64,000 nucleotides of DNA from an uncultured Bacteroidales bacterium (GTDB lineage Bacteria > Bacteroidota > Bacteroidia > Bacteroidales > F082): contig ONFF01000015.1 in the NCBI GenBank assembly GCA_900317055.1, positions 1-64,000 of the forward strand, in the 5' to 3' direction. Below the pieces are notes generated by a model, which saw nothing but the letters and a program-made list of their open reading frames with translations, was not told where the DNA came from and made no database searches. This document shows positions 18,660-50,568 of this stretch, in pieces. Position 1 is the stretch's first letter. Each line of letters starts with the position of its first letter. A program made the position numbers and the translations under genes.

Positions 18660-19719
18660 TTGTCACCTCCTCCTTCATTGTCGCTGACTGCGTCTCGTGG
18701 TCAGCACCTTCCATCTGCAAGGACGCAGATGGTGACATTGTGGCTTGATATTGTGCATAACTCTCGTTGACAAAGTCCGTCATACTATTCAAGGCGGTAT
18801 CGCTCTCGAGAGTCGAAGCCGAATACTTGGCGAACTTCACCAAGTCGGCAATCTCCATAGTATCTTTCAGTTTGTCATAGGTCTCCTTCGGGAAATGTAA
18901 TGGCCTGACTTCCTCCAAGATGTCATCGGTAGTCATTTCGATGGCATTCACACCAAACTGACCTTCGATGTACTCGCGGGCGATATCTGTAAGTGAGGAG
19001 AAATACTCCTTCACCTTACCCGATTGCCAGATCTTTTCTTCACGCAACTTCTTCAAGTCGCCAACGGCCTTGTCATAAGGCGGGATAACAGGTCCATGCA
19101 CAATATTGCCATTGACATCAACCTTGGGCTTGCGATGCTTACTCCAATACCAAATGCCAATGACCAGTAAGACCAGCAGCAACGCACCGAGAATCCACGG
19201 GAACACCTCCTTAAATTTCACTGGTGCGTCGATGGGTTCCACGATAGGTTTATAAGCCATGGTGGTATCGACCTTCATTGTCGACGAATAAAGACGGATG
19301 GGGTCTGTATAGGCATTCAAGCGGTTCGGGTCGTCAAACGAACTGGCATATTTCAATGCTATAGGCGGCACCTGCACTTGTCCCGTGTCGAATGTCATCA
19401 GCGTAAGCTGCTGCTTCACGATAACATTACTGTCGGCATCGGCGGTGCGTTCCACCTCACTGCGCTTGATGATGTCGAGCTGCTCCGAGAGCGTGTCGGT
19501 GGCGAAGTCGTTCCATTCCACAAACCAGCCGTAGGGCACCTTGAGGCTCAAGTCAAGGGTAAAAGGCTTTCCCACCTGCACATCTGTGCTTTCCACCTTG
19601 CCTTCCACCTCCACATCTTGGGGTAGGTTATTCCCTATTTGGATTTGTGGAGACGCAAAGCATTGCGTCTCTACAGCCCAAATTAATAGGGTTAGCACAA
19701 ACAAAACATATTTCTTCAT
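18652..19719 (-). CDS. bat-operon membrane protein (DUF4381/BatD-like)
   Basis: 355 residues. The signal peptide core (MKKYVLFVLTLLIWA) is followed by a periplasmic beta-rich region with VEGKVESTDVQVGKPFTLDLSL, a membrane helix (WILGALLLVLLVIGIWYW, about 176-193), and a cytoplasmic alpha-helical part with PYDKAVGDLKKLREEKIW. Position between the DUF58 and batA genes is standard in Bacteroidota. The stretch V16-E-T-Q-C-F-A-S-P just after the signal core is encoded by a 28-bp palindromic repeat (19647-19674). The start overlaps the DUF58 stop by 4 bp. Function unknown. Confidence 0.8.
   Translation of the reverse strand: MKKYVLFVLTLLIWAVETQCFASPQIQIGNNLPQDVEVEGKVESTDVQVGKPFTLDLSLKVPYGWFVEWNDFATDTLSEQLDIIKRSEVERTADADSNVIVKQQLTLMTFDTGQVQVPPIALKYASSFDDPNRLNAYTDPIRLYSSTMKVDTTMAYKPIVEPIDAPVKFKEVFPWILGALLLVLLVIGIWYWSKHRKPKVDVNGNIVHGPVIPPYDKAVGDLKKLREEKIWQSGKVKEYFSSLTDIAREYIEGQFGVNAIEMTTDDILEEVRPLHFPKETYDKLKDTMEIADLVKFAKYSASTLESDTALNSMTDFVNESYAQYQATMSPSASLQMEGADHETQSATMKEEVTNV
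19647..19674 (-). repeat. family-A palindrome inside a coding sequence (signal-peptide region)
   Basis: A 28-bp near-perfect palindrome (two mismatches between halves) whose minus strand starts GTAGAGACGCAATG. Its first base is codon position 1, so it encodes V16-E-T-Q-C-F-A-S-P of the bat-operon membrane protein, near where the signal peptide would be cleaved. Confidence 0.8.
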
Positions 19720-20594
19720 CTTCTTGCCTCCCTTTTCTTAAAGAGTTGCATCAAAGGTCTTACATAGTCTTCATCGGTGTAAATCAGCGAGTTGTCGATA
19801 CCATGTTTTGTAAACTCACGGTTCAACTCCGCCGATTTGTACTGTATCATCTGTTGGTAGGCGTTGTGCCAAGCGCGACTCGAGGTGTCGACCCAGCGTT
19901 CCTTTCCCGTCTCCGAGTCGCGGAACTTCACCAGACCTACCTTGGGAATGTCCATTTCGCGGCGGTCGGTGATGCGCAAGGCGACGAGATCGTGCTTGTT
20001 GGCACAAATCTGCATCTCTTTCTCGAAGCTCTTGTCCGTCATGAAGTCGGAAATAAGGAAGGCCGTGGTGCGACGCTTGATGGCCGAAGTCAGGAAACGC
20101 AGGCCCTCGCCAATGTCGGTGCCGCGTTCCGTCGGCTTGAAGTCGACGATCTCGCGGATGATACGAAGGATATGGGAACTGCCTTTCTTCGGCGGGATGA
20201 ACTTCTCGATCTTGCTGCTGAAGAAAATCACGCCCACCTTGTCGTTATTCTGGATGGCAGAAAACGCCAAGACAGCTGCCAATTCGGCAGTCAGGTCACG
20301 CTTCGACTGGCTCTGTGAGCCGAAGTCGTTGGAACCCGACACATCGATGAGCAGCATCACCGTCATCTCACGCTCTTCCTCAAAAATCTTGACGAAAGGC
20401 TTGTTGAAGCGGGCGGTGACGTTCCAGTCGATATTGCGGATGTCGTCGCCGTACTCGTACTCGCGCACCTCACTGAAGGTCATACCACGCCCCTTGAAGG
20501 CGCTGTGGTACTGCCCCGAGAAGATGTGGTTCGAGAGGCCTCGCGTCTTGATCTCGATCTTTCTTACCTTTTTGAATATTTCTGTTGATTCCAT
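19716..20594 (-). CDS. DUF58 domain protein
   Basis: 292 residues. The family signature REYEYGDDIRNIDWNVTAR is at 44-62. A VWA-like fold follows, with an intact MIDAS (Asp84, Ser86, Ser88 in DVSGS). DUF58 proteins are regular partners of MoxR ATPases and BatA/B. No signal peptide or membrane helix, so it is probably cytoplasmic. It sits 85 bp after moxR in the same operon, with a repeat-rich spacer between them. Confidence 0.9.
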   Translation of the reverse strand: MESTEIFKKVRKIEIKTRGLSNHIFSGQYHSAFKGRGMTFSEVREYEYGDDIRNIDWNVTARFNKPFVKIFEEEREMTVMLLIDVSGSNDFGSQSQSKRDLTAELAAVLAFSAIQNNDKVGVIFFSSKIEKFIPPKKGSSHILRIIREIVDFKPTERGTDIGEGLRFLTSAIKRRTTAFLISDFMTDKSFEKEMQICANKHDLVALRITDRREMDIPKVGLVKFRDSETGKERWVDTSSRAWHNAYQQMIQYKSAELNREFTKHGIDNSLIYTDEDYVRPLMQLFKKREARR

Positions 20595-20627
20595 ATTTTA
20601 AACCATCATTTTTTCTTTTTTCGGCAT

Positions 20628-20677
20628 GGGGTTTACACCCCGTTCGCCGTTTTGTCTATCGTCCCTACGGGACTAGG
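20628..20677. repeat. small hairpins in the moxR-DUF58 spacer
   Basis: Two adjacent hairpins: GGGGTTTACACCCC (20628-20641) and GTCCCTACGGGAC (20661-20673). A relative of the second, GTCGCACCTACGGGGC, is in the spacer downstream of cinA (about 55988-56003), suggesting a dispersed repeat. Neither has a T-run. Confidence 0.4.
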
Positions 20678-20679
20678 CA

Positions 20680-21672
20680 TTACGGCACCTCGATGGTATT
20701 TAGGATTTCGTTGATGATTTCTTCGGTAGTAATATTCTCAGCTTCAGCCTCATAGGTCAAGCCAATACGGTGGCGCAACACATCGGGAGCCACGGCACGG
20801 ATGTCCTCGGGGATGACATAACCACGATGCTTGATGAAGGCATAGGCCTTAGCCGCCAGAGCCAAGTTGATGGTGGCACGCGGCGAACCGCCATAGCTAA
20901 TCATATTTGCAAACTTCTTCAGCTTGTAGTCAGAGGGATAACGTGAGGCGAAGACAATGTCGGTGATGTAGTTCTCAATCTTCTCGTCGAGATAGATTTC
21001 GCGGCACACCTCGCGGGCACGGATGATGTCCTCAGGCTTCACCACGGCATTGATTTTCGCACCAGTGCTAGCAATCTGCTGGCGCAGAATCAGTTTCTCC
21101 TCTTCCTTCTTGGGGTAGTTGATGACCACCTTCAACATGAAACGGTCCACCTGGGCCTCGGGCAGCGGATAGGTACCTTCCTGCTCGATGGGGTTTTGGG
21201 TAGCCATGACAAGGAAAGGATCCGGCAACTTAAAGGTCTCATCGCCGATGGTCACCTGATGCTCCTGCATGGCTTCGAGCAGGGCACTCTGCACTTTGGC
21301 GGGAGAACGGTTGATTTCATCTGCCAACACGAAATTGGCGAAAATGGGACCGCGACGCACCACGAACTCCTCCTTCTTCTGGCTGTAGATCAGCGTACCG
21401 ATGAGGTCGGCAGGCAACAGGTCAGGAGTGAATTGAATACGGGCAAAGTCGGCATCGATGGCACTAGCCATCGACTTGATGGCCAAGGTCTTGGCCAGAC
21501 CCGGCACACCTTCGAGAAGGATGTGACCGTTAGCCAGCAGACCTATCAACAGGCGTTCCGTCATCTGTTTCTGTCCGACGATGACCTTGTTCATTTCGAG
21601 GTTGATGAGGTCGAGGAATTGACTCTCATGTTGGATTTTTTCGTTCAGTTCACGAATGTCAGTTTCTATCAT
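20680..21672 (-). CDS. MoxR-type AAA+ ATPase
   Basis: 330 residues, usual length. Walker A GVPGLAKT at 55-62, Walker B VLADEIN (Asp118, Glu119), sensor region MATQNPIEQEGTYPLPEAQVDRF, and the C-terminal lid with YGGSPRATINLALAAKAYA are all intact. MoxR proteins remodel or load metal into partner complexes, here most likely the DUF58/BatA/BatB VWA proteins. It is the first gene of the operon, with a promoter box at 21792-21799 and a leader of about 110 bases that contains a large hairpin. Confidence 0.93.
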   Translation of the reverse strand: MIETDIRELNEKIQHESQFLDLINLEMNKVIVGQKQMTERLLIGLLANGHILLEGVPGLAKTLAIKSMASAIDADFARIQFTPDLLPADLIGTLIYSQKKEEFVVRRGPIFANFVLADEINRSPAKVQSALLEAMQEHQVTIGDETFKLPDPFLVMATQNPIEQEGTYPLPEAQVDRFMLKVVINYPKKEEEKLILRQQIASTGAKINAVVKPEDIIRAREVCREIYLDEKIENYITDIVFASRYPSDYKLKKFANMISYGGSPRATINLALAAKAYAFIKHRGYVIPEDIRAVAPDVLRHRIGLTYEAEAENITTEEIINEILNTIEVP

Positions 21673-21710
21673 TGTGTCAGTTGTTTAGTTTGTTCAATTA
21701 AAGCAGGTTG

Positions 21711-21771
21711 CTGAGCCTGTCGAAGCACCGTCTTTCTATCTGTCGGCCCTTCGACGGGCTCAGGGGCCTTG
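21711..21771. repeat. family-B palindrome (CTTCGACAGGCTCAG type) in the moxR leader
   Basis: GCTGAGCCTGTCGAAGCACCG (21711 onward) pairs with CGGCCCTTCGACGGGCTCAG (about 21749-21768). The pair would form a stable hairpin in the 5' leader between the promoter at 21792 and the moxR ATG at 21672. Relatives occur at 26388-26489 and 51085-51123 and inside three genes. Confidence 0.7.
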
Positions 21772-21791
21772 ACCCCTCGTCAAAAAGCGTG

Positions 21792-21799
21792 CAAAAATA
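21792..21799 (-). promoter_or_regulatory. -7 box (TATTTTTG) for the moxR-bat operon
   Basis: An exact TAnnTTTG match 120 bases upstream of the moxR ATG. It is the only good box in the gap before the operon. Confidence 0.6.
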
Positions 21800-21851
21800 G
21801 CCGTTTTTCGGGTAAATAACTCCTATTTAATAAATTTATTGCAGGAAAAGC

Positions 21852-21883
21852 AAAAATCCTCCTACGGTTTCTGTAGAAGGATT
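21852..21883 (-). terminator. terminator of the GLUG-repeat gene
   Basis: On the minus strand AATCCTTCTACAG pairs with the CGTAGGAGGATT side, followed by a T-run. It lies about 220 bases after the stop at 22100, the intervening DNA being the family-D repeat. Confidence 0.6.
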
Positions 21884-21956
21884 CATTTATTTGTTTCACG
21901 CAGAAATCGCAGAATACACTGAAGCCTGCCGGACGCATACTACACATCGCTTTGCG

Positions 21957-22022
21957 TCATTGCGAACGAAGTGAAGCAATCCAGACAAAAGAACTACTGG
22001 ATTGCTTCGTACCTCGCAATGA
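21957..22022. repeat. family-D palindrome (CATTGCGAACGAAGTGAAGC type)
   Basis: TCATTGCGAACGAAGTGAAG (21957 onward, to 21984) is nearly complementary to CTGGATTGCTTCGTACCTCG (21997 onward, to 22022) around a 12-base loop. This type of sequence is dispersed in many bacterial genomes. It lies in the 427-bp gap 21673-22099, which has no gene. Confidence 0.7.
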
Positions 22023-22099
22023 AGCAAAGCGCGTTGGGGCAAAGCGTCAATAAATTCCAAATTCCCATAGTTCTGCGTATTCAGCGTGCCAAGAAAAAA

Positions 22100-23530
22100 C
22101 TATTCCACAACGATTTTTTGCGTTTCGTTGCCCAATTTCACGAAATACATGCCACGCGGCAATGCGACAGTCGTCTGGCCGTTGATTTCCTTGACCAGTA
22201 CGACCTGGCCGAGCAGATTGCTCACCGTCATCCGACCCGTGCCTTCCACTGTGAAGCGGCCTTGGGCGGGATTGGGATAGACATTGAATGATGCATCCGT
22301 GATTTCAGGAACAGTGAGATCAATTGATGTAAGAATAGGAAAGCCATCATTGGTATGGTTTACATCCATAGCCCATATTGGCTCACGGTTACCCCCATTC
22401 AGACAATCCACAAATGCCTGAGTGCGCATATAGTCTTCCGTTTGAGGCGTGCCTTCGCCACCAGCATCGCAGGTGTTGATGTAATAGTTGTTCTCAAATA
22501 CCCCATCACGAGCATAGGCCATGATACATCCAATGTTTTTTGTACTGGAAACATTTCCAACATTGTAACAATTTGTCATGATTACAGTCTGATTACCCAT
22601 AAGTGCAGCTCCAGCTATGCCACCAGCTGCTGGACCTGCTGGATAAGAACCTGGCACCACACCATCGGCGTCTACATTGCCTGTATTATAGCAGTTGTTA
22701 ATGATTATTCGAGCCTGTGAGTCTCCTCCAAAAACACCTCCCGCAAAAGTTCCAGTGATATCGCCTTTGTTGTAACATTCCTCAATCTCGGCGCCACCAC
22801 CACCAAGGATACCACCTGCAATGTAAGCACTCACACTTCCAATATTGTAGCAGTTTTGTATGTGGAGTGTACGAGACGGGTTTTGATTTTGACCAACGAT
22901 GCCACCAACACCATTTCGCATGCCTCCACCACATTCCAATACTACTCCACTCCAACAACGAGAGACTAAGACAGAATCTGCCGTTGTTCCAACAATACCT
23001 CCGCAACTTCCATTTCCTCTAATATAGCCACTAATGACAAACACGTTCTCAATGACAGCGGTCTTCTCTTCGTTTCCACCACGAACGTTTCCAAACAGGC
23101 CAAGATATGATCGGTTTTCATCATTGATGTATATATTGGAAATACTGTGTTCGCCACCATCAAAATGGCCACGGAAGATGGGGTAAGCACCATCATAGAA
23201 ATTGCCGTAAGATGGCCACCCTCTTTCACAACCATCTTCGCTGAAATTGAACCGCTTATCTCCCACTCCAATAGGTATCCATTGCAAGTCCTCGCTGCCA
23301 TTCAAGTCAATGTCGGTAGTCAGACGGAAATACAGGCCCTCAGTATCATAGTATTTGTTGACCACATACGCCAAATAGGCCAAATTGTCGGCTGATTCGA
23401 TTAGAAAAGGGTCGTTTTCTGTTCCAGAGCCACGCGTCCAAACGGCTCTGCCGCCGTGCCAAACGCTGGTTTGGGCCAAGGCCATTGTGCCCGTCAATAC
23501 GAGCATCATCATGATATATATCTTTTTCAT
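22100..23530 (-). CDS. T9SS-exported GLUG-repeat protein
   Basis: About 476 residues from ATG 23530, which gives the signal peptide MKKIYIMMMLVLTGTMALAQ; in-frame ATGs at 23539 and 23557 are possible. The mid-region contains repeated GGIVG/GGILG and CYNxGxV motifs, the GLUG beta-helix pattern common in adhesins. The C-terminus is a sorting domain (FNVYPNPAQGRFTVEG, NLLGQVV, GMYFVKL, QKIVVE). It starts just after the gene at 23562-24989 and is probably cotranscribed. Likely a surface adhesin or binding protein; ligand unknown. Confidence 0.85.
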   Translation of the reverse strand: MKKIYIMMMLVLTGTMALAQTSVWHGGRAVWTRGSGTENDPFLIESADNLAYLAYVVNKYYDTEGLYFRLTTDIDLNGSEDLQWIPIGVGDKRFNFSEDGCERGWPSYGNFYDGAYPIFRGHFDGGEHSISNIYINDENRSYLGLFGNVRGGNEEKTAVIENVFVISGYIRGNGSCGGIVGTTADSVLVSRCWSGVVLECGGGMRNGVGGIVGQNQNPSRTLHIQNCYNIGSVSAYIAGGILGGGGAEIEECYNKGDITGTFAGGVFGGDSQARIIINNCYNTGNVDADGVVPGSYPAGPAAGGIAGAALMGNQTVIMTNCYNVGNVSSTKNIGCIMAYARDGVFENNYYINTCDAGGEGTPQTEDYMRTQAFVDCLNGGNREPIWAMDVNHTNDGFPILTSIDLTVPEITDASFNVYPNPAQGRFTVEGTGRMTVSNLLGQVVLVKEINGQTTVALPRGMYFVKLGNETQKIVVE

Positions 23531-23561
23531 ATCGTTCATTATTAAAGGGTTACTCATTGTA

Positions 23562-32784: not shown

Positions 32785-35253
32785 TTAACGCACCACAAAT
32801 TTCTGTGTCACATCGCCCACGCTGATGAAATACATGCCCTGGGGCAGATTCGTTACATCAATCTGTTGGTTTTCAGCGTTGAGGCTGCCCGTGAGGACGG
32901 TTTGACCCATGAGGTTGGTGATACGGTAGGTTTCCGCTGGTAGAGACGGTGTGCACACCGTCTCTACAACGAGGGCGCCATCGGTCGGGTTAGGATAAAC
33001 GGTGAAGGTCCCTATGCCTGTCGAAGGGCCGTCTTCCTCGATGCCATTGTGGTATTCCTGATACACCTCGTCGCAGTCCCTGTCGCCGTATTTGTATGTC
33101 AAGAATCCATTTCTCCAATAACAACGCAAGCCTTCAACTTGATAATTCTTGTCCCGTGTCATTAGACGTTCTGGGAAAAAACTCGTCAAATGGCCGATGC
33201 TGCACATAATAGTGCCGCTGAAGAGGTTACTTTGATCGTTTACCAACATTTTTTTGTAGCTTGTGCCTTCATAGACATAGTATTCTACACCTTCCACATG
33301 CATGACAAGGCTTTGATTCCCCACTTTGATTTCCCATTCTTCGCCGATTTCAGCGCCGAAGTCGTAAAGCACGGTGAACTCTTCCAAGTCCTTGTTCCAC
33401 CAATATACCTTGCCGTTTTCTTCATAGACATATTCGTGGGTCACTTCGGCCTGCCTGCCCTTGTCATAGAGCGTGTTCGTGCGGATGATGATTTTCACAT
33501 CCTTATGGTTGACGGTGGTGTCGGAGGCATATTCCAAATGCTGATAAGTAATGCTCCCGTCATCATTGATGATTTCGTAATACATTTCTCTGCCAGAAAG
33601 AATATTACCGATTTCTGCCAAGCACCACCAATAACCGGACCAACTTTGGTCATTCAAATAAGTCTCAAGTGTGCCTACAGGAACATAAACATAAGCATCC
33701 GCCGGTCTAACTTCCCAAGGATACAAGGGGTTCAAATCGATGACAGGAGGAATGACAGAGTTTATATTGATTTCCATAAGATTGGGGCAATTTGAAATAG
33801 CATATCCCCTAATTTTTGCCACTGTATTTGGAAAACTGACCGACACCAAGCTGTCACAACCGACAAAAGAGCCACCTATGACTTCCTCAATTCCTTCAGG
33901 AATGGAATAAGTTGTCGCATAGTTTTTCGGAAAATGGGCAAAAAAGCGGTCATTAAATTGAGGCTCACTTAAGTTATCGCAATCCCAAAAGCAATTATCT
34001 CCAATATCTGTTACTGAGTTAGGTAGATTTATCGTGGTCAAGTGATGGCATTCTTCAAAAGCACCGTATCCGATACTTTCCAATGATTCGGGGAGCGAAA
34101 CATAGGTCAAGTTTTCACATTTAAGGAAGGCTTGTTGCCCGATGGCTTTCACTGAGTTTGGGAGGATGATGGAATCGAGGTTGGTGCATTCCCAGAACAC
34201 ACGCTCAAGGATGGTTTCCACTCCATCCGGAATGGTGTAGGAAGTAGCGTAGTCTTTCGGAAAATAAGCAAAATAATGGCTGTTGTACACAGGCTCTGTA
34301 AGCCCGTCGCAGTCCTCAAACACATACGGCCCCATATTCGTCACCGAATTGGGCAATGCAAAGGATGTCAATGATCTGCAATTTGCAAAGGCATACTCCC
34401 CAATGGTTGTAACCGAGTTTGGAATGACGATGGAAGGCAGCCTCCCACAAGAGCGGAAAGCACCTTCCCCAATGCTCTGCAAAGCATTAGGCAACACGAT
34501 AGTATCCAAAAAAACGCAGCTTTTAAAGGCCTCTTGTTTGATGCTTGTCACCGAATAGGGAAGCGTAATAGTGTGGATTTTCGATCCTGAAAAAGCATTA
34601 TCTTCAATACTTGTCACGCCCTCTGGAATGACGACAGACTCCAAAAAATCGCAGCTTGAAAATGCGCCTTTCCCAATTCTTGCAACCGAAGTAGGAATAG
34701 TAATCGCACTCATGTTACAATGACGAAAAGCAGCACTTGCAATTTCTTCAATCCCTTCTGGAATCACGAATGACGATTGGTCATATCTAGGATGGTATGC
34801 AAAAATCTTGTCATTATATACATCATTCATAATATTATCTGTTCCCTCGAAAACATAGTTTCCCATGCTGGTTACTGAATTGGGGAGCAAGAAATCCGTC
34901 AAACCCATAATATTGCTGAAAGCCTGATTGCCTATTGTAGTAAGGGAATTAGGAAGGATAACAGAAGTTATTCCATGACAGTAGGAAAAAACTTCTTCGT
35001 CGATACTTATCACAGTGTAAGTGACGCCTTGGTATTCGACAAACTCGGGAATGATAAGGTTGCCCTCGGGTATGTCATAGCCATTCCATCCAAAATCTGG
35101 GTCAGGACGACACACTGCCACTTCGGTATTGCCGCTGGAGAGAATACGATAATACAGAGTCTGCCCCGATTCGCAAACACTTGAAAAATCGTAGGCCAAG
35201 GCTTGCATCGCGAAGCCAACCAAAATCGCTATGGTAAAGAATAACTTTTTCAT
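32785..35253 (-). CDS. BspA-like leucine-rich-repeat surface protein with T9SS sorting domain
   Basis: 822 residues. A signal peptide is followed by roughly 440 residues of LRR_5 (BspA-type) repeats, each like SVTSIxxxAFxxCxxLxxIVLPNS. Then comes the module of about 185 residues (558-740) shared with the next two genes (YYEIINDDGSITYQHLEYAS through CDEVYQEYHNGIEE), a GPSTGIG linker, and a sorting domain ending QKFVVR. BspA repeats bind host or bacterial surface ligands. The linker and one loop of the sorting domain are encoded by palindromic repeats (33011-33030 and 32940-32967). Confidence 0.88.
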   Translation of the reverse strand: MKKLFFTIAILVGFAMQALAYDFSSVCESGQTLYYRILSSGNTEVAVCRPDPDFGWNGYDIPEGNLIIPEFVEYQGVTYTVISIDEEVFSYCHGITSVILPNSLTTIGNQAFSNIMGLTDFLLPNSVTSMGNYVFEGTDNIMNDVYNDKIFAYHPRYDQSSFVIPEGIEEIASAAFRHCNMSAITIPTSVARIGKGAFSSCDFLESVVIPEGVTSIEDNAFSGSKIHTITLPYSVTSIKQEAFKSCVFLDTIVLPNALQSIGEGAFRSCGRLPSIVIPNSVTTIGEYAFANCRSLTSFALPNSVTNMGPYVFEDCDGLTEPVYNSHYFAYFPKDYATSYTIPDGVETILERVFWECTNLDSIILPNSVKAIGQQAFLKCENLTYVSLPESLESIGYGAFEECHHLTTINLPNSVTDIGDNCFWDCDNLSEPQFNDRFFAHFPKNYATTYSIPEGIEEVIGGSFVGCDSLVSVSFPNTVAKIRGYAISNCPNLMEININSVIPPVIDLNPLYPWEVRPADAYVYVPVGTLETYLNDQSWSGYWWCLAEIGNILSGREMYYEIINDDGSITYQHLEYASDTTVNHKDVKIIIRTNTLYDKGRQAEVTHEYVYEENGKVYWWNKDLEEFTVLYDFGAEIGEEWEIKVGNQSLVMHVEGVEYYVYEGTSYKKMLVNDQSNLFSGTIMCSIGHLTSFFPERLMTRDKNYQVEGLRCYWRNGFLTYKYGDRDCDEVYQEYHNGIEEDGPSTGIGTFTVYPNPTDGALVVETVCTPSLPAETYRITNLMGQTVLTGSLNAENQQIDVTNLPQGMYFISVGDVTQKFVVR
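32940..32967 (-). repeat. family-A palindrome inside a T9SS sorting domain
   Basis: A perfect 28-bp palindrome; the minus strand starts GTAGAGACGGTGTG. In codon phase 0 it encodes V763-E-T-V-C-T-P-S-L. The two neighbouring paralogues have a family-C repeat at the same protein position. Confidence 0.85.
33011..33030 (-). repeat. family-B unit inside coding sequence (linker)
   Basis: The minus strand GGCCCTTCGACAGG... encodes G742-P-S-T-G-I-G, the hinge between the shared module and the sorting domain. Homologous units are at 35614-35633 and 39545-39564. Confidence 0.75.
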
Positions 35254-35390: not shown

Positions 35391-38300
35391 TTAACGCACC
35401 ACAAATTTCTGTGTCACATCGCCCACGCTGATGAAATACATGCCCTTCGGCAAACCTGACACATCAATCTGCTGGGTTTCAGCAGTGAGATTGCCCGTTT
35501 GGATGGTTTGACCCATGAGGTTGGTAATTCTGAATGATGAATTCGGAATGTTGAATGCTGAATGGTGAATGGTGAGGACGCTGTTTGTCGGGTTGGGATA
35601 GAGGGTGAAGGTCCCTGAGCCTGTCGAAGGGCCGTCTTCCTCGATGCCATTGTGGTATTCCTGATACACCTCATCGCAATCCTTGTCGCCGTATTTGAAT
35701 ACCAGATTACCCTCACGCCAGTAGCAGCGGATGCCTTCCACGCGGAAATTCTTGCCGCGCGACATCAGCCTTTCGGGGAAGAAACTGGTAAGGTGGCCGA
35801 TGCCGCTCATAATCTCCCCACTGAACAGGTTGTTTGCATCGCTTACGTGCAACATTCTGTATGTTGTGCCTTCATATTCATATTGTTCGACAGTGTCGAC
35901 ATGCATAGTGATGCTTTCAGTGCCCACCCAAATCACCCACTCGTCACCGATTTGTGCGCCAAGGTCATATAGCAGAGTGAAATCTTGCCGAGTTTCGTTC
36001 CACCAATACACTTTACCAAAATCCTCATAGATGTATTCGCGTGTCTTTTCCTCGCCCCTGCCCTTGTCGTAAAGCGTATTGGTGCGGATGATGATTTTCA
36101 CTTCCTTGTCATTGATAGTCGTGTCTGAGGCATATTCCAGATGCTGGTAGGTAATGCTTCCGTTCTCGTTTTGGATTTCGTAGTACCACTCAGAGCCAAG
36201 CGAAGACATATTCCCGACATGGAAATACCCAAACGCCTCTTCGGGATCTGACTCGCGGCCATCGGCGTAGGAAGCCGTAAGACTATAGTAATAATCGCCA
36301 AAAGGATGCTGCAACGTGTCGTAATACTCCTCCGCATCCCTATCCAACTCGGCAATTTTCTCCAATTCCTCTAAAGACCGTCCTCGGTAAAGGTTGTAAT
36401 GGTCGAAATCCTCATTATATGGGTCATCGTAGCGATGGTTAATGTAACCTCGTATCATCCAATCACCGCCACGGCCTTCCATGGAAGGATAATCGTACCA
36501 ATAGCCTCCATAACCAAGGCATGCCCAACGGCCATCTGAATTGCCAGAAGACTGACAATAAGGTGCGTTAATAGTTCCGACATGGGGGGCTGTCAGGAGA
36601 ATCCAAAGACTCTTTCCTTCCTCGCATTCAATGGGATTACGAAGTTTCACCATCACCCATTCATCAGGACCTGGCCCGACTTGAACATTATTACCAGGAA
36701 GAAACTCCAAATTGTCAGGTTCCGTGTCACCTCCAACACCAAAAACAAAGTCATAGGTAGCCTGGTTTTGAATTCCTGCCTTATAGAAAGCCACATGCGT
36801 CAACACATCGCCTGCTTGGATTTCCTCAGCCGGGATCCTTATGCCCCACATATGACAAAAAACGGAGCCCGCATAAGGTTTCTCATCGTAATTTACCCAT
36901 TTGCTACCCAAAGGATGGTGCCACAACATCCATGTCCTACAGGTTCCTTGTTCGATACTTGGCCAACCATAAAAATTATAAGGTGCATCACAATAGGCTT
37001 CAAGCATCTCATCACCCACGCTCTTAGGCCCTAACAATGGGAAACCAAGATTAGTGTTGTCCAAATCTGACAGCCAAACGGTTATGTAAGGGTAATCTGG
37101 TACGGAATCAAGCACAACTGTAGTGCCAAAGTTCAAAGCATCCAACAAGTCAGTAGTGCCGTATTGTGGTTCAAAAAGGAAAATGGAATCATTTTGACGC
37201 GTAAAGGCAGACGACCCTGGCAATTCAGGATAATCGGGATGGCCATTGGCTGGGAGATCTGGTTCAAACCAATAGCTGTTCAAATAATTGTCTGGATGGA
37301 GTTCATAGCCCACAACTTGCCCAAAGCCAATCAGGGCCTCAGCGGGAACCGTCAATTCCGGATTGAAGACACTACCAGCATTATAAACATTGAAGACGCG
37401 TGAATCAGGGCCACCCGCAATGCCTCCCACAAACACATACGAGAGGTGCTCACCGGCATTCTCATAGGAAGCGGTAATATTTCCGAGATTGTAGCAGTTG
37501 GCGATTGTTCCGCCATTGCCACCCACAATGCCACCCAGCATCGTGCCATATCTGGTGTATCCATTGACATCGCCTTTGTTGACACAACGAATCACTCTTG
37601 TGGCACGCGATCCCACAATGCCGCCAACCATCTGGTAAGCCTCTGCTTCCACGCAGGTCACTTTGCCCTCGTTGGTGCAGTCGTAAACAAACAACACTGG
37701 GCCATCTTCGGGATCCGAACGCCCAACGATGCCACCACAATTGTGCGACCCCTGCACTTCACCTTCGTTCGTGCAGTTTTCAATCGTGGCATTGTTGGCC
37801 TCACCTGCGATGCCGCCTACACTGTATTCTCCGCCTGTCACCTCAAACTGATTCAAGCACCCTGTAATCGTTCCGTTACGGAACCAACCGACAATACCAC
37901 CTGCATCACCACCACTTGTCACAGAAAACACAGCCATATAGCCATCATTCTTAACTTTACAATTGGTCATCACACAAGGCATGCGACCATCCATTTTATT
38001 GACTTGACCCACAATGCCTCCAGCACAATCTGAACCTTCAATCCATGTGGCTACATCGACAAAGCAGTTCTTAATATAGTAGGGCTCAATATCATCCACA
38101 TAGACATGTACACCAAACGGCAGATCCGCGCAACCCACCAAGCCACCAATAGCTCCCCATTCCTCCGTCGAAATGGAAGATTGGGTAATGCTACAGTTGG
38201 AAATGTCGCTCAAACCGGCATAACCCACCAAGCCTCCTACATAATGTCCTTTGCCACTGATACTGCATCCCGACAAGCGCACATTACTGATTTTGGCCTT

Positions 38301-39309: not shown

Positions 39310-40347
39310 TTATTTATTCACCACAAATTTCTGTGTCATATCGTCCACGCTGATGAAATACATACCCTGAGGCAAAGCCGACACATTAATCTGTTGGGTT
39401 TCAGCGTTGAGGCTACCCGTTTGGACGGTTTGGCCCATGAGGTTGGTGATTCGAAATGCGGAATGATGAATGCGGAATGATGAATGATGAATGGTGAGGA
39501 TGCCATTGGTCGGGTTGGGATAAACGGTTAAGGTTCCTGCAGTTCCTGAGCCTGTCGAATGGCCGTTTTCCTCGATACCATTGTGGTATTCCTGATACAC
39601 CTCGTCGCAGTCCCTTTCTCCGTATTTGAACACCAGTTCACCGTTGCGCCAGAAGCAGCGGATGCCAACCACGCGATAGTCCTGCTTCTTTTGCATCAGC
39701 CTTTCAGGGAAATAGCTTGTCATGTGACCAACGCCACAGAAGATGATTCCGCTGAACACTTCGTTGTCGTCGCTCACATGCAGCATCTTCACTATCTTGC
39801 CTTCGTATTCGTACTCGTCCACAGCATCAACATGCATGGTGATGCTGTCCAAGCCGACAGTGATCTCCCACTCGCTGCCCTCTTCCGCTCCATAATCATA
39901 AAGCATCGAGAACTGCCGCGTGGTCTTGTTCCACCAATACACCTTGCCATCGCTCTCATAAACATATTCTCGCGTCACCTCTTGGTGATTGGCCTTGTCG
40001 TAAAGAGTGTTGGTGCGGATGATGATCTTCACATCCTTGTGATTGATTGTGGTGTCGGAGGCATATAACAAATGCTGATAGGTGACGGTGCCGTCATCGT
40101 TCAAGATTTCGTAGTACCATTCCCGCAATTCTTGCTCTTCCAACACCTGCATCTTGACATAGTTTCCCGCTTCGGGGTGCGATTGAAAGCCTGGTTGCAG
40201 CTTGACATGCACAGTGGCTTGATACTCATGACTCTCCGTAGAAGGGATAGGTGCATTCAGTTCAAAAGACTCCCCTGTATGGATTTCCTGCGCCATGACC
40301 AGCGAGGCAACCATCAACAGGCTGAACGTTATTAGGATTCGTTTCAT
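39310..40347 (-). CDS. T9SS-exported protein with the shared module
   Basis: 345 residues. Signal peptide, a short N-terminal part (ELNAPIPSTESHEYQATVHV), the shared module at about 76-260 (WYYEILNDDGTVTYQHL to CDEVYQEYHNGIEE), a GHSTGSG linker from family B, and a sorting domain with a family-C insertion (TIHHSSFRIHHSAF) ending QKFVVNK. The simplest of three consecutive paralogues. It lies 19 bp after the 35391-39290 gene's start codon region and is probably cotranscribed. Function unknown. Confidence 0.85.
   Translation of the reverse strand: MKRILITFSLLMVASLVMAQEIHTGESFELNAPIPSTESHEYQATVHVKLQPGFQSHPEAGNYVKMQVLEEQELREWYYEILNDDGTVTYQHLLYASDTTINHKDVKIIIRTNTLYDKANHQEVTREYVYESDGKVYWWNKTTRQFSMLYDYGAEEGSEWEITVGLDSITMHVDAVDEYEYEGKIVKMLHVSDDNEVFSGIIFCGVGHMTSYFPERLMQKKQDYRVVGIRCFWRNGELVFKYGERDCDEVYQEYHNGIEENGHSTGSGTAGTLTVYPNPTNGILTIHHSSFRIHHSAFRITNLMGQTVQTGSLNAETQQINVSALPQGMYFISVDDMTQKFVVNK
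39453..39499 (-). repeat. family-C repeat inside a T9SS sorting domain
   Basis: Plus-strand GAATGATGAATGCGGAATG units encode T-I-H-H-S-S-F-R-I-H-H-S-A-F on the minus strand, at the same site as in the neighbouring paralogue. Confidence 0.8.
39545..39564 (-). repeat. family-B unit inside coding sequence (linker)
   Basis: CCTGAGCCTGTCGAATGGCC on the plus strand; the minus strand encodes G262-H-S-T-G-S-G in phase 0. Confidence 0.75.
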
Positions 40348-44467: not shown

Positions 44468-44472
44468 TAATC

Positions 44473-44502: not shown

Positions 44503-44530
44503 CAAAACATTCTCTAATTCTTGATAAAAA

Positions 44531-46600
44531 CTACTCTTTCTCGTTCCGCATCTTGACAATCTCTTCCTGCTTGTCCTTCGGTGTCGGCATGTACTGGTGG
44601 AACTCCATCGAGTAGTTGGCGCGGCCCGAGGTGAGGTTGCGCAAGGCGGTGGCATAGCCGAACATCTCCATCAGCGGGACGAAGGCATCCAGCTTCTGAG
44701 AGCCCTTACGGAAACGACGCATGGCCTCGATGCGACCACGGCGCTTGTTGACATCGCCCGTCACATTGCCGATGTAGTCGTCGGGCGTGTTGATTTCTAC
44801 CTTCATCACAGGCTCAAGCAGCACAGGGCTGGCTTTCATGAAGGCCTGCTTGAAGCACATCTGGGCGCAAAGCTGGAAGGCCATGTCGCTGGAGTCGACG
44901 GGGTGCGAACTGCCGTCCACAAGGACGCACTTCACATCCACGACAGGATAACCTGCGAAAGGACCTTTGTTCATGGCCGCTGCCAGACCCTTCTGCACCG
45001 AGGGAATGTATTCCTTTGGAATCACGCCACCCTTGGTGATGTCGACGAACTCGAAGCCGCCGCCCGGGTTAGGCTCGAAGCGGATGACGGTGTGGGCGAA
45101 CTGGCCCTTGCCGCCGGTCTGCTTCACATAGCGGTAGTTGCACTCGAACGGTGCGGTGATGGTCTCGCGGAACGACACCGAAGGCGCGCCCACCGTAACC
45201 GGAACCTTGAACTCTTCCTTCAGGCGGTCGACGATGATTTCCAGATGCAACTCACCCATGCCCGCGATGATGGTCTCTTCCGTCTCCTCGTCGAAGTGAG
45301 CGTGGAACGACGGGTCTTCGTTGCAAAGCTTGGCCAAGGCCTCACTCAGCTTGCTGCGGTTCTTCTTGTCGTCGAGGTTGACCTTCATCTCGATGACCGC
45401 AGGCGGTATATTGATGGATTCCAACAAGATAGGCTGATTTTCATCGCAGAGCGTGTCGCCCGTCTTGGTGTATTTCATGCCCACGAGAGCCACGATTTCG
45501 CCTGCACTTGCCTCGTTGATTTCCTCGCGTTCCTTCGCCTTGATGCGGAAGATACGACCCACGCGCTCACTCTTCAGCTTGTTGGTGTTGTAGACGCTCA
45601 TGCCGTTGGTCAGCTTGCCGCTGAAGATGCGGATGAAGGTCTGCTGGCCCACATACGGGTCGTTGATGAGCTTGAAGGCCAAGGCCGAGAAAGGCTCATT
45701 CTCGGAGGGGTTGCGACGGTAGGTCTTCTCCTCGTTGGCGGGGTCGTGCGCGATGACGGCACCCAAGTCGTTGGGCGAAGGCAGGTAGTCGACAATGGCA
45801 TCCAAAAGGAGCTGGATGCCTTTATTCTTATAGGCGGCACCGCAAAGCACCGGCACCATCATCAGTTTGATGGTGGCCTGACGGATGGCGGCCATCAGTT
45901 TGTCGGTCGGGATTTCTTTGTCTTCGAGGTAAAGCTCGGCGATCTCGTCGTCGAGGTCGGCGACCTTCTCGATAAGGTTGCGGCGGGCTTCCTGGGCTTG
46001 CTCCATCATGTTTTCCGGGATGGGACCGACGATGCGTTCCTTCTCGATGAAGCGCACCGAGTTCATCTGCACCAAGTCAACCATGCCCTCAAAATCGGAC
46101 TCTGCTCCGACGGGGAGATGCAGCGGCACGGCGTTAGCGCCCAAGTATTTATGCATCTGGTTGACCACCTCTTGGAAGTCGGCACCCGTGCGGTCCATCT
46201 TGTTGACGAAGGCAATGCGGGGCACGCGGTATTTGTCGGCTTGGTTCCACACCGTCTCCGACTGCGGCTCCACGCCACCCACGGCGCAGAACACAGCCAC
46301 CATGCCGTCGATGACGCGCAGCGAGCGTTCCACCTCGACGGTGAAGTCGACGTGACCAGGAGTATCAATAAGGTTGATCTGATAGCCGTTCCAATGTGCA
46401 GTGATGGCTGCCGAAGCGATGGTGATGCCGCGCTCCTGCTCTTGTTTCATAAAGTCCATGGTGGCTTGTCCATCATGCGTTTCACCCACCTTACGGTTGA
46501 CGCCCGTGAAGAACAGGATGCGTTCCGAAACCGTAGTCTTACCAGCATCGATATGCGCAGCGATACCGATGTTTCTCAATTTTGAAATGTTTAAACTCAT
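44531..46600 (-). CDS. fusA: elongation factor G
   Basis: 689 residues. EF-G drives ribosomal translocation with GTP. G1 AHIDAGKTT (15-23), RGITI switch, G3 DTPGHVDF, and G4 NKMD are intact, so GTPase activity is expected. Domains II-V are complete in length. The gene is not in the usual rpsL-rpsG-fusA-tuf string; it stands alone with its own promoter (46658-46665). It may be a second EF-G; whether another copy exists outside the window cannot be told. Confidence 0.92.
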
Positions 46601-46657
46601 TATTTTATCTGATTTTCAATTATTTGCAAATACAAATCAGGCTTTTGATTCGGGCTG

Positions 46658-46665
46658 CAAAGGTA
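46658..46665 (-). promoter_or_regulatory. -7 box (TACCTTTG) for fusA
   Basis: An exact TAnnTTTG match 58 bases upstream of ATG 46600. Confidence 0.6.
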
Positions 46666-46696
46666 CGGAAAAACTTTGAACCTGCAATTCAAATCG

Positions 46697-49240
46697 TCAT
46701 TTGACGAACCTTTCGCTTTTCTTCATACCGTTAGTATCCATAACCTCAACCAAATACACACCAGCAGCCCACTCTGAAACATCCAAGCAGACTTCCGAAG
46801 TCCCATCAGCAGAAACCGACTTGACAAGCTGTCCCAAAGCATTGTAAACATTGATGGTCTTCATTCCTTCCGCTTCAATCGTGACAAAGGAGGAGGCGGG
46901 CACAGGATAAACCTTTAACGACTCCGTTTGTATTTGATTTTCAGCTATTCCCGTCGGGTCAAAAGTGTCGTTACCATCAGTGAGCCATTCAAGGCTGAAG
47001 TTGTAGAACACCGTCGAATAGCCCGAGGCGCCAGCGTAGGCTTCCTCGACATAGAGTCCAATGGTGCCATCGGGCAGAATACAGAGCGAAGAATAGGCCG
47101 AGCTATAGGGCACGATGCATTTCTTCACCGGCCAGGTCTCGCCCTCGTCGTAACTCACATAGACCGTCACATCGGTGCGTGAGTTGCCGTATGGCACCGA
47201 ATGCAGCAAGCGGTTCTTGTCATGACCTTGGTTTTCGGAGGTATAACGAATCATGTCGCCATTGCAGGCAGGCGCGGTGATATCGTACCAAGTAGAGGTG
47301 GTGGGTTGCCAAGTCTCGCCGCCGTCCTCGGAAATGTTGTACCAGCGGTTGCCCGCGTGACGGATGCTCATCAGGATGCGGCCATCGGCCAACTCCGTAA
47401 CCTTAGCCTCATCGCCCGAGGTGGAGGCACGACCCGACACATGCCAAGTCTGACCGTTGTCATCGGAATAAACAGCATGGTTGTAAAGCACCTGTGCCGT
47501 AGTCTCACGGATGGCAGCCACAAACATGATACGACCTGTGGAGGTGCGCAGCCCGTTACCCGAACCGAAGAACGAGGCGCGCCATGTGCGCTGTTCGGGG
47601 ATAATGCAGTTGTCGCCAAAGATGAAGTGGGTGATGTCTTCGGGCTCCGTCCAAGTCTGACCGTTGTCATAACTCTTACAAATATAGGTGCGGATCGGAT
47701 TCGATGGGGTGGAATACCACAAGCCGGGACCACCTACAAAACCCGCGACGAGGCCATTGTCGTCGTCGCTCCATGCTAAAGCGCAGTCGCCGAAGCCATG
47801 GTTGACACCTGTACCCAAGGCTATAGTGTAAGGCTCACTCCAAGTGTGACCACCATCGGTACTGCGGTTGCAGACAATGTCAATGTCCTCGGGCAGGTCG
47901 CCTTCGTTGTATTTGCGTTTGTCGGTGACCGCCACGATGCTTCCATCCTTCGCCGTGATGACGGCAGGAATGCGATAATTGGTTGAGTTATAATCACCTG
48001 GCTGCAATAATAAGGTATGTGCAAGAATGATTTCACGGCTACCAGCTGGCGAAGGATTAGCCAACTCATAAGTCTCCTCCGCAGTCGTAATCGACTTCAG
48101 TGAAGCATCAATGAAATTACCTTCAGTAGCATTGTCGGCTACATGTGCCACGACCCAAAGGTAATTGGTGCCATAGACAAGGTTGCCATCCAAGTTGCAG
48201 GTTATGTCACCCGAGGCTGGAACAACACTTCCAAGCAAAGTGGCGTTTTGAGGATGGCGTTCATCGAAACCATTGGCAATGCCCGTAGAATAGACCTTGA
48301 TTTCTTCAATATCATTCAAATCCGTTGTTCCCTCAAGATTCAAGGTTATGGTTTGCAGTTCAACCTCGGCACCACCGTCAGCACCGTCCACAGCCACCGC
48401 TGCCTTGAGTAGCACATCATTTTCATTGCCACGCCCCGTCTTACGCGTGTCTTGGGTCAAAGTAACATTCCATATCCCAGAACCGCCAAAATTAAAATTA
48501 ACCAGTTGTGCATCGTGACCATGCCCCGAAAGGTCGGGCAAAATGTTGTCATTGACCCAGGTTGCAGAGAATTCATAAGCGGCTCTTAAGTGATCTGCCA
48601 TGTAAAAACTTATATCATATAAATCATCAGCGCCTAAATCCCTTTGTATCTCGTCGGGTTCCAGTGCTATATTGTAGAACCTCACATTGCCAAACGAGCC
48701 GTTGCAGAAGTTGGCAGGCTGCCCGCCGCTGTTGCCCGCCCCTATAAACACATCATGCGTGTTGGTCACGGCCCAGTCGTTCACCGCTGCCACCCAACTG
48801 CTGTTGGTCTCACCGTTTTGGTATATGCGAATCTCGTTATTCGGGCGGTCCACAACGAGGGCAAAATGCATCCACTCCCCTGCCGGAACAGTGACACCCG
48901 TATAGATCGACAAGGCGTGACCCGAGGTTGAAGTGGGCGTATTGAGTCCCAGCGACTGGCCCGCACTGCCCGTGCCAAAGAACTCATAACCCGTGCGTTC
49001 GCTGCCCGCACCTTGCACCAACATATCGCGCTTGCACACATAACGCGGGTAACTAGTATAGGTCTCGTTGCGCACCCATCCCGTGACCGTGAAGCTTTGG
49101 TCGGCAGCGATATTAAAGTCTTCGTGATGCGGGATACGCATATATTGGTCAGTACCGTTGAAAGTGATGTAATGGGCAGGTTGGGCAAATGCCCCAGTCA
49201 AAGCCGTCAGCAGAACAGCGAGAGCAAAAAGTTTTTTCAT
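46697..49240 (-). CDS. exo-alpha-sialidase (GH33-like) with LamG domain and T9SS sorting domain
   Basis: 847 residues from ATG 49240; the longer frame to 49345 runs past the -7 box at 49282. Signal peptide, then a LamG-like domain (about 22-205), a beta-sandwich region with FNFGGSGIWNVTLTQDTRK, then a sialidase propeller with the YRIPAV (FRIP-type) motif and five Asp-boxes (STDGGHTW, SYDNGQTW, SDDNGQTW, SEDGGETW, SYDEGETW). The C-terminus is a sorting domain (LKVYPVPASSFVTIE ... ERFVK). It should release sialic acids from host glycans at the cell surface. No other sialic acid genes are nearby. Confidence 0.9.
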   Translation of the reverse strand: MKKLFALAVLLTALTGAFAQPAHYITFNGTDQYMRIPHHEDFNIAADQSFTVTGWVRNETYTSYPRYVCKRDMLVQGAGSERTGYEFFGTGSAGQSLGLNTPTSTSGHALSIYTGVTVPAGEWMHFALVVDRPNNEIRIYQNGETNSSWVAAVNDWAVTNTHDVFIGAGNSGGQPANFCNGSFGNVRFYNIALEPDEIQRDLGADDLYDISFYMADHLRAAYEFSATWVNDNILPDLSGHGHDAQLVNFNFGGSGIWNVTLTQDTRKTGRGNENDVLLKAAVAVDGADGGAEVELQTITLNLEGTTDLNDIEEIKVYSTGIANGFDERHPQNATLLGSVVPASGDITCNLDGNLVYGTNYLWVVAHVADNATEGNFIDASLKSITTAEETYELANPSPAGSREIILAHTLLLQPGDYNSTNYRIPAVITAKDGSIVAVTDKRKYNEGDLPEDIDIVCNRSTDGGHTWSEPYTIALGTGVNHGFGDCALAWSDDDNGLVAGFVGGPGLWYSTPSNPIRTYICKSYDNGQTWTEPEDITHFIFGDNCIIPEQRTWRASFFGSGNGLRTSTGRIMFVAAIRETTAQVLYNHAVYSDDNGQTWHVSGRASTSGDEAKVTELADGRILMSIRHAGNRWYNISEDGGETWQPTTSTWYDITAPACNGDMIRYTSENQGHDKNRLLHSVPYGNSRTDVTVYVSYDEGETWPVKKCIVPYSSAYSSLCILPDGTIGLYVEEAYAGASGYSTVFYNFSLEWLTDGNDTFDPTGIAENQIQTESLKVYPVPASSFVTIEAEGMKTINVYNALGQLVKSVSADGTSEVCLDVSEWAAGVYLVEVMDTNGMKKSERFVK

Positions 49241-49281
49241 GGCGATAAGTGTTATTGGATTAAACTTCAATGTATTGGGTG

Positions 49282-49312
49282 CAAAACTAATATTATTTCG
49301 GAAATGACACAA
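49282..49312 (-). promoter_or_regulatory. promoter of the sialidase gene
   Basis: -7 TAGTTTTG (49282-49289) and TTG (49310-49312), spaced by 20 bp. Divergent from the box at 49321-49328. Confidence 0.65.
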
Positions 49313-49320
49313 CTTTTTCC

Positions 49321-49328
49321 TATTTTTG
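49321..49328 (+). promoter_or_regulatory. -7 box (TATTTTTG) for the unknown gene at 49400
   Basis: An exact TAnnTTTG match 72 bases upstream of ATG 49400. It rules out upstream in-frame starts, which would lie inside the sialidase gene. Confidence 0.55.
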
Positions 49329-49399
49329 CCTCGTGTATTAGCCAAACATCATCAACATACGAAAAGGAAATAGGATTATTATTTAAACAATTTAAAACT

Positions 49400-50059
49400 A
49401 TGGGCTGGATTGTTGATCATTACAAAATCACCTACAACGACCTATTTGTGGGCAGTTATTATGTTTACGAAGACAACACTTGCAGGTATTACGTCAACAG
49501 TTGGAAAAATGAACTTGAGCCCATCAAGGACCTCCTTGAAAAAAAAGGTCTGTTGAAAGACAAAGACACAAAGAGACCTATCGCCGCCATCACGAAGATG
49601 ATGACGGCTGAAAATAGGATAAAAGGCAGAAAGAGATCCATATATCATTGTGACGGCCTTACTTTGGAAAGGATTCCTAATGAGACCAACGAGCGTTTTC
49701 TGGTGTATCAGCATGATGCCAATAAAGGGCAGCCAGGCTATTCGGACAAAGACCATTCCGCCCCACATTATGAAGGTGAAAAAACGCCTGAAGGGATGAG
49801 GGAATGGACCACCTGGTACGCCTTCGTCAAGATGGACGATGGCACATACGAGGCGGCACTCGACGAATCCTGGTGGTGGGGCGGCGGCCACAACGACGGC
49901 GGCACCATCCACACCGACATCCCCGAAGAATGGTTTGAATTGTCCTACGACGAATTCCTTGAAAACGTGGTAACGCTTTCGGCGGCTTCACACTATGGTT
50001 TCACGCCAGATGAACTAAAAGAAAAACAAGGACTGAAAGAATTCTTTGGTTTCGAATAA
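49400..50059 (+). CDS. protein of unknown function
   Basis: 219 residues, no signal peptide. It is rich in charged and aromatic residues, with a C-terminal SWWWGGGHNDGGT segment and FTPDELKEKQGLKEFFGFE. No family was recognised. The frame is open further upstream to 49013, but that part is antisense to the sialidase gene and upstream of the promoter. It is the only plus-strand gene in this region. Confidence 0.7.
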   Translation: MGWIVDHYKITYNDLFVGSYYVYEDNTCRYYVNSWKNELEPIKDLLEKKGLLKDKDTKRPIAAITKMMTAENRIKGRKRSIYHCDGLTLERIPNETNERFLVYQHDANKGQPGYSDKDHSAPHYEGEKTPEGMREWTTWYAFVKMDDGTYEAALDESWWWGGGHNDGGTIHTDIPEEWFELSYDEFLENVVTLSAASHYGFTPDELKEKQGLKEFFGFE

Positions 50060-50070
50060 GACACAACTTG

Positions 50071-50568
50071 CTATTTCCACCATCCTTCCAGTTTCAGCAA
50101 CGCGATTTTGTTGTGTATGCCTCCTCCATAGCCCGTGAGGTTACCATTAGCACCCATAACGCGATGACAGGGCACGATGAGGCAAATGGGGTTCCAACCC
50201 ACAGCGCCACCAACCGCCTGTGCAGAATTGATTTTCAACCGTTTTGCGATTTCGCCATAAGTTAGTGTATGCCCAAATGGTATCTCGCACACGATATCCA
50301 ACACTACCTTGCGGAATGGTGTCAAGTCTTCCATGCGGTAAGCTGGTGTGAAATCGGGCTGATGGCCAGTGAAATAGAAGTCCAACCAACGATAGGTATC
50401 ATGAATTACGGGCGGTAGTGACGAGCCATGGCGCGTCTCTACAACGCCCAATGGATGTTTGTTTTCGTCACGCGAGCCTGCAAACCATAGGCCCGTCAGC
50501 GCCTTGCCGTCGGTGCTCATCAAAAGGTCATCGAAACCTTCTGGGGTTGGATAAAGGTATGTAGCCAT
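50071..50568 (-). CDS. ogt: methylated-DNA-protein cysteine methyltransferase
   Basis: 165 residues from ATG 50568; the upstream in-frame codon at 50574 is TTG. The active-site motif PCHRV (Cys134) and the downstream GYGGG helix motif are intact. It repairs O6-methylguanine by transferring the alkyl group to its own cysteine. Residues 43-51 (VETRHGSSL) are encoded by a family-A palindrome (50415-50442). It lies 2 bp after the GNAT gene stop and is likely cotranscribed. Confidence 0.9.
   Translation of the reverse strand: MATYLYPTPEGFDDLLMSTDGKALTGLWFAGSRDENKHPLGVVETRHGSSLPPVIHDTYRWLDFYFTGHQPDFTPAYRMEDLTPFRKVVLDIVCEIPFGHTLTYGEIAKRLKINSAQAVGGAVGWNPICLIVPCHRVMGANGNLTGYGGGIHNKIALLKLEGWWK
50415..50442 (-). 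repeat. family-A palindrome inside ogt
   Basis: A 28-bp palindrome with two mismatches; minus strand starts GTAGAGACGCGCCA. In phase 0 it encodes V43-E-T-R-H-G-S-S-L in the N-terminal domain of Ogt. Confidence 0.8.

Follow-up and report, generated by a model that had tools for sequence, protein, structure and literature searches.

Palindromic elements in the window

The window, meaning the whole stretch of DNA analysed, comprises positions 1 to 64,000 of contig ONFF01000015.1 from an uncultured Bacteroidales bacterium (GTDB lineage F082), and holds several copies of a short palindromic element. The element has the form GTAGAGACG-N10-CGTCTCTAC, consisting of invariant 9-bp arms around a variable, mostly self-complementary core. 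Cores of 8–12 bases were observed, mostly of 10 or 11, and both ends of the element carry a foot (GTAG...CTAC) within the 9-bp arm, which is common to many phyla. The family, its palindromic form, its linkage to the tyrosine transposases associated with repetitive extragenic palindromes (REPs), known as RAYTs, the sharing of cores with these genes, its codon phases and core differences at fixed sites are established below. Together they make it very probable that the element is a double-foot REP of RAYT subclass 2.4, a miniature non-autonomous mobile palindrome.

Three copies lie in minus-strand open reading frames (ORFs). Each is 28 bp long and begins at codon position 1, as had been noticed, together with the V-E-T peptides, in an earlier reading of the window from its letters (the sequence-only reading). 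The first (19647–19674, core CAAAGCATTG) encodes VETQCFAS within a 355-aa membrane protein without a Pfam match (18652–19719, minus strand; earlier labelled a bat-operon membrane protein), and appears, in our own reading, to sit in its N-terminal, signal-peptide-like part. Relatives G061 and G053 have the same core at this site; in G083, G074, G086 and G052 the block is 39 bp shorter and holds no palindrome. The flanks of this copy within 19600–19720, CCCTATTTGG and AATAGGG, resemble an additional inverted repeat. The second copy (32940–32967, core GTGTGCACAC) encodes VETVCTPS in a loop of a type IX secretion system (T9SS) sorting domain, flanked by NPTxG and YRITNLMGQ, in a BspA-type leucine-rich repeat protein with a Por_Secre_tail domain (32785–35253, minus strand). 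The third (50415–50442) encodes VETRHGSS in ogt (50071–50568, minus strand; open frame 50071–50574, called start 50568), the product of which carries the 6-O-methylguanine DNA methyltransferase domain PF01035.

The other copies are intergenic. The 28-mer at 9250–9277 (core TTGTGCGCAA, left end worn) is confirmed as non-coding and lies between the minus-strand ORFs 7181–9214 and 9286–12180. Its site is occupied also in relatives G061, G074 and G083, with point differences; G053 has core TGCCTTGGCG there, within flanks 77–79% alike, and G086 has a different palindrome instead. The interval 63591–63659, previously given as non-coding, is indeed so, and resolves into a pair of 27-bp copies with 9-bp cores at 63591–63617 (core CATTGAATG, right end worn) and 63633–63659 (core CAATCATTG, left end worn), both identical in G061. 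A degraded seventh copy, GAGACG..CGTCTC with the outer GTA/TAC gone, is found at 3964–3986, 3' of the minus-strand ORF 4013–5656.

Abundance, pairing and taxonomic spread

A strict search pattern, GAGACG-N4-30-CGTCTC, matched the window five times (3964, 19650, 32943, 63594 and 63636) against 0.06 expected, and the source genome 61 times against two for a reversed-pattern control. Chance is ruled out as the source of this excess. Strict matches were present in all 99 genomes of the genus that were searched, at 8–130 per genome, with 0–5 for the reversed-pattern controls. A cross-genome scan returned at least 117 loci with the element from at least 14 phyla by record title; many of the 117 are metagenome bins, and some of the phyla with a single locus may be binning errors. 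Among the 117 loci listed, 59 are from Bacteroidota, 37 from Cyanobacteriota, five from Chloroflexota and three from Thermodesulfobacteriota; ten phyla have one locus each and three loci are unassigned.

The scan loci contain 125 strict-arm copies, chosen by the GTAG/CTAC ends that worn copies lose. Across the whole set of 90 with a 10-bp core, the five inner pairs were Watson-Crick in 89.6% versus 36.6% with the halves shuffled. Both-side changes at four variable core pairs filled 70 cells, versus 17.9 when shuffled, in a set of 34 copies that was picked by hand, is mostly well paired and leaves badly paired copies out. The main signal in the bases adjoining the arms is a T at −1 (52%). No target duplication was visible beside the copies, exact 5-bp flanking repeats occurring at 1 of 124 and repeats of 6–9 bp at none of 124.

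Gene context and codon phase

Gene context in this genome was scored, with gene calls from a simple hexamer model, over the window and 42 stretches around known copies (452,746 bases), outside which at least one strict copy lies (C22:148048). A filter of at most three arm mismatches with most core pairs kept, which drops some strict matches with worn ends, passed 61 copies. Of the 39 intergenic copies, 24 have co-directed neighbours and 15 convergent ones, with no copy in a divergent interval; for 33 of the 39 the nearest gene 3' end is no more than 30 bp away. The context class of the 9250 copy rests on a doubtful plus-strand prediction; the long ORFs put it between co-directed genes.

The remaining 22 copies are within predicted genes, at codon position 1 in 17 cases, position 2 in five and position 3 in none. 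The corresponding counts were 15, 9 and 0 for copies inside RAYT genes of the genus, and 13, 5 and 0 for the 18 of 125 copies in the named loci that fall within clear ORFs. The fixed reading phase proposed in the sequence-only reading was rejected as a property of the element, since position 2 is also used in all three sets (5/22, 9/24 and 5/18). The third frame contains TAG, so a copy at position 3 would end its ORF and could not be counted inside one; with that frame closed, three copies out of three in one phase have a chance of about one in four, given equal odds for the two frames that remain open. Counted copy by copy, 17 versus 5 gives p 0.017; with each gene family in this genome counted once by our own grouping, 9 versus 3 gives p 0.15. 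A preference for position 1 is possible, but it is no rule. Nor is independence of the position-1 copies supported, 8 of the 17 occupying one homologous loop of the T9SS sorting domain.

Linkage to RAYT genes

In locus L095 a short HUH frame contains one palindrome and has a second one upstream of it. When the ORFs of loci L001–L158 were searched with phmmer, eight RAYT genes were recovered, that of L095 included, all among the 117 listed scan loci, and each has a palindrome copy inside the gene or within 100 bp. Most of the eight aligned rows show NHxH, WQ and YIxNNP motifs and a variable insertion between HUH and Y, by which motifs the RAYT is provisionally placed in subclass 2.4. The L095 contig is assigned to Patescibacteria (Uhrbacteria); over 256–852 its RAYT frame ends before the Y motif, and the extended flanks of the palindromes match.

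A RAYT profile matched 70 of the 99 genus genomes (E≤1e-10), and palindrome copy number rises with RAYT matches over the 99 genomes (rho 0.47). Among 30 high-scoring RAYT loci of the genus, three of them cut by contig ends, an in-frame palindrome lies inside the gene in 22, a flanking copy within 300 bp in 24, and either in 28. Palindromes flank the RAYT also in named loci such as L036 and L095, and both strong RAYTs of this genome carry an in-gene, in-frame copy. As a control, 20 high-scoring Pfam Y1_Tnp loci (the 17 best of other genomes and three of this genome) had a strict copy at only one, and a link to such genes of the genus was rejected. Seven of the 20 Pfam Y1_Tnp proteins, as translated, are YIxxQ-HH proteins, subclass 1.2-like.

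Copies at one RAYT locus have, for the most part, a common core. In a set of the 30 genus loci and five of the eight named loci, 24 of the 35 having two or more copies, cores were within two differences in 52 of 57 pairs from one locus and in 225 of 2571 pairs between loci. For the 22 RAYTs with an in-gene copy, loop excluded, protein distance followed core distance in both the N-terminal part (rho 0.41, 0 of 5000 permutations) and the C-terminal part (rho 0.30, 6 of 5000). Three cores were commoner, with genomes pooled, where the matching RAYT is known (33/335 vs 21/1079, 51/148 vs 117/1274 and 26/281 vs 30/1137). At L171, L173 and L178 the cores are asymmetric (TGCCATGGCG) and point the same way with respect to the RAYT gene, whether the copy flanks the gene or lies inside it. 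A G-T wobble thus falls on one strand and a C-A mismatch on the opposite one, and the asymmetric core is possibly a strand mark.

Sites inside proteins compared between relatives

This genome has 19 matches to the T9SS sorting domain, of which 17 were aligned. Among the 12 close domains, one loop holds the palindrome, intact or worn, in nine and a different repeat in three; the five distant domains have neither. Nine core sequences occur in the nine palindrome-bearing loops, and two of these sequences differ by a single base. Core swaps between relatives were seen in these domains, but below the flank-identity filter. In two neighbouring sorting domains of the window, at 35394–35612 and 39319–39534, an IHHSxF-coding repeat of GAATGATGAAT-like units stands at the loop position that the palindrome has in the third. 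Other host genes in this genome encode an AlkZ-like glycosylase, a glucanotransferase, a BadF-type ATPase and an MBOAT protein.

A match to ogt was found in 73 genomes and 30 loci were aligned. The palindrome occurs at one position, with three core types by our own grouping (8, 8 and 3 rows); six rows have no palindrome and five were left unassigned. On the gene tree built with the palindrome removed, in which good support is seen for nine of the 27 inner branches and nine forks are open, the four states need at least eight changes and the two main cores alone at least five. At third codon positions (17 rows) the arms vary least, at 0.09 over six positions versus 0.19 and 0.27 for the flanks, and the cores vary most (0.43).

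Comparison of sites of the window region with six relatives, under a requirement of 80% or more likeness in the flanks, left 29 unique pairs of orthologues. The core is identical in 14, differs by one or two point changes in five, is swapped in nine, and in one is of the same type on the other strand. All nine swaps are at ogt, where the copies coincide in position base for base and the flanks are 80–98% alike. That the core here changes between close species, both halves together with the arms persisting, is possibly a new behaviour of a known kind of element.

The U32 peptidase gene of this genome holds three copies with three cores, all at codon position 2. Of 30 loci, 25 were aligned at site 1 and five dropped; 14 have the palindrome, five have other inserts and six are empty. 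The 14 palindromes comprise five core types at one place and in one frame, G037 having two extra codons before the copy. At site 3 a distant clade carries the palindrome at position 1 and this genome at position 2. Every stop in the U32 rows lies upstream of the loops, and the loops of the rows inspected have none. In relatives, loops 1–3 (L348–L374, 25 rows; L378–L397) also hold other palindromic families, with CGTCATTGCGAG...CTCGCAATGACG, GTAGGGACRCACCGCGTGYGTCC, GCCGACTGCGTCCCCGCAGTCGG and TGTCATTTCGAGC-type repeats.

The sequence-only reading had supposed that each in-gene copy arrived as 28 bp with two further bases, and had suggested aligning hosts with copy-free homologues to find any target duplication. 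Copy-free orthologues differ by 3–39 bp net and none by 28 or 30: the net difference is 3, 12 or 18 bp at ogt, 6 and 15 bp in the U32 gene, and the net gain at U32 site 1 is five codons. No target duplication was found in these alignments, occupied and unoccupied pairs differing by blocks.

Proposed mechanism and alternative explanations

RAYTs are HUH Y1 tyrosine transposases, and the core type of the element goes with the RAYT lineage. By analogy with the RAYT enzymes of groups 2 and 3, for which binding and cleavage of single-stranded REPs are demonstrated according to the available part of the source (PMC8266576), the RAYT most likely recognises the foot and core hairpin in single-stranded DNA and then copies or moves the hairpin. 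Intergenic copies are found mainly just beyond gene 3' ends. Within genes a copy would survive only in a stop-free frame and a tolerant loop, and copies there accordingly read VET.....S (position 1) or xRD....VS (position 2). At some old sites the core differs as a unit from species to species, with the arms unchanged.

How cores might be exchanged is a more tentative matter. One scheme, which we consider rather unlikely, is that the fixed arms of resident REPs serve as a landing pad, to which a single-stranded REP freed by the RAYT would anneal through its own arms and so overwrite the resident core. Chromosomal sites, even those inside genes, would in this way be re-stamped with the core of the active RAYT. 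Such overwriting would explain arms common across phyla alongside variable cores, and why both core halves differ together. It would also explain why several in-gene gains resemble replacements of 3–18 bp net and not 28-bp insertions.

A competing account of the fixed-site differences invokes no core replacement, only the passage of genes from one species to another or separate insertions that hit the same loop. This account is compatible with a RAYT-linked REP and quite plausible, if somewhat short of an even chance. All nine swapped pairs fall at the single ogt site, forks in the ogt tree are open, and the U32 loops also take up unrelated palindromes, as this account would have it. Against it stand the identity of the ogt position to the base within flanks so closely alike, the five or more changes between the two ogt core types alone, and the five core types at the same place and in the same frame of U32 site 1 (G037 again with its two extra codons before the copy).

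The inference in the sequence-only reading of an in-frame palindromic element in a Bacteroidales holds in that the element is dispersed and lies in many unrelated genes. That it is a Rickettsia palindromic element (RPE), a selfish in-frame palindrome without a RAYT link, is very improbable. In-frame copies in many unrelated genes are expected of it, and RPE-4/6 have been grouped with CGTC-tagged REPs that are likewise intragenic and lack a dedicated transposase (PMC3733652, available part). However, 28 of 30 RAYT loci carry the palindrome with the core mostly shared, and REPs of the CGTC class carry their CGTC tag unpaired, with an AT-starting stem of 8–9 bp and a CCA tail, whereas here CGTC is paired inside the arm. 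The nearest match is the RAYT-linked double-foot REP.

Just as improbable is a regulatory or terminator hairpin maintained by selection at gene ends. The closeness of 33 of 39 intergenic copies to a 3' end and the lack of any between divergent genes speak for it, but the core varies with pairing kept behind arms common to many phyla, and copies occur inside coding sequence and inside RAYT genes. The element may have a side effect on RNA; that it originated as a terminator is unlikely. That V-E-T-x4-S is a conserved protein motif can practically be discounted, for although these residues recur in many ogt and T9SS orthologues and paralogues, the position-2 copies refute it, with the same DNA read in another frame (xRD....VS) and found also between genes, and in ogt the third codon positions are less variable in the arms than in the flanks.

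Several results count against the double-foot REP interpretation. Transposition itself was not seen, and the orthologues compared yielded neither an empty site that differs by a clean insertion of 28 or 30 bp nor a target duplication. RAYT matches (E≤1e-10) are missing from 29 of the 99 genomes, five of which have at least 40 palindrome matches; lost or unassembled RAYTs would explain these. Two of the 30 RAYT loci (L182 and L187) have no copy. The subclass marks are altered in L118 (DHIH, YIATNP) and L035 (YIIDNP), L053 and L084 lack the W, and the L095 row breaks off before the Y motif. The core-matching tests draw on 22 genomes, for each of which a single RAYT core is known, and leave kinship uncontrolled; tested per genome, the core YGCCATGGCR does not reach significance (p 0.17; the other two 0.035 and 0.029, one-sided). 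Both strong RAYTs of this genome have the core CACGGCCGTG, which is exact in just five genome copies. Finally, 3 of the 90 strict-arm copies with a 10-bp core are badly paired (two or fewer of five pairs).

As a double-foot REP, the element is a palindrome recurring across phyla and inside protein genes that is tied to one transposase class, and shows that mobile DNA can supply new sequence to protein loops. The ogt gene amounts to a natural experiment, since a single site is occupied in numerous sister species and its core differences can be read, and it makes the spread of REPs testable as copying, insertion or the overwriting of existing sites.

Comparison with known systems

The sources compared below were available in part, and statements on them are limited to those parts. 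A text search of the literature for the element sequence found no paper on it among the titles listed. A search for cross-phylum sharing of the arms, or for cores exchanged at a fixed site, also found none; subscription papers were mostly outside its scope, as were supplements, so it is weak evidence of novelty.

The element has in common with the RPEs, as described in PMC3733652, in-frame palindromes in many proteins. RPE-4/6 are reported there as CGTC-tagged REPs without their own transposase, and RPE-1 is longer; here RAYT genes carry the element, its CGTC is paired, and the unpaired tag, AT stem and CCA tail of the CGTC REPs are not seen. The REPs of Nunvar et al. 2010 (PMC2817692) also form a REP-rayt-REP unit, with REP divergence tracking RAYT divergence and RAYT presence tracking the number of cognate REPs. 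Unlike the present element they are mainly gammaproteobacterial, and an in-gene tag and in-place core exchange were not found in that account.

The GTAG-tagged REPs of Di Nocera et al. 2013 (PMC3733652) are closer, having the GTAG sequence, RAYT linkage, intragenic copies, and small palindromes beyond gene 3' ends, mainly between co-directed or convergent genes. Their tag is at one end and unpaired, whereas here it is paired at both. This GTAG-CTAC pairing is set in strict copies by the way copies were selected; both ends are retained, too, by many of the genome's copies that pass relaxed criteria. GTAG repeats were reported in Proteobacteria, Cyanobacteria, Chloroflexi and the PVC group, Bacteroidetes being listed for CGTC repeats only.

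The closest correspondence is to the double-foot REPs of TnpAREP/RAYT subclass 2.4 (Bertels group 4) defined by Quentin et al. 2018 (PMC6006769). Common to both are the 5' GTAG and 3' CTAC feet with a long hairpin, a RAYT with NHxH, WQ and YIxNNP, copies that flank the gene and insert in frame between HUH and Y, and an occurrence in Bacteroidetes, Cyanobacteria and scattered phyla. Unlike in that account, the 9-bp arms here recur in at least 14 phyla, the cores follow the RAYT, and other genes have fixed sites at which the core differs.

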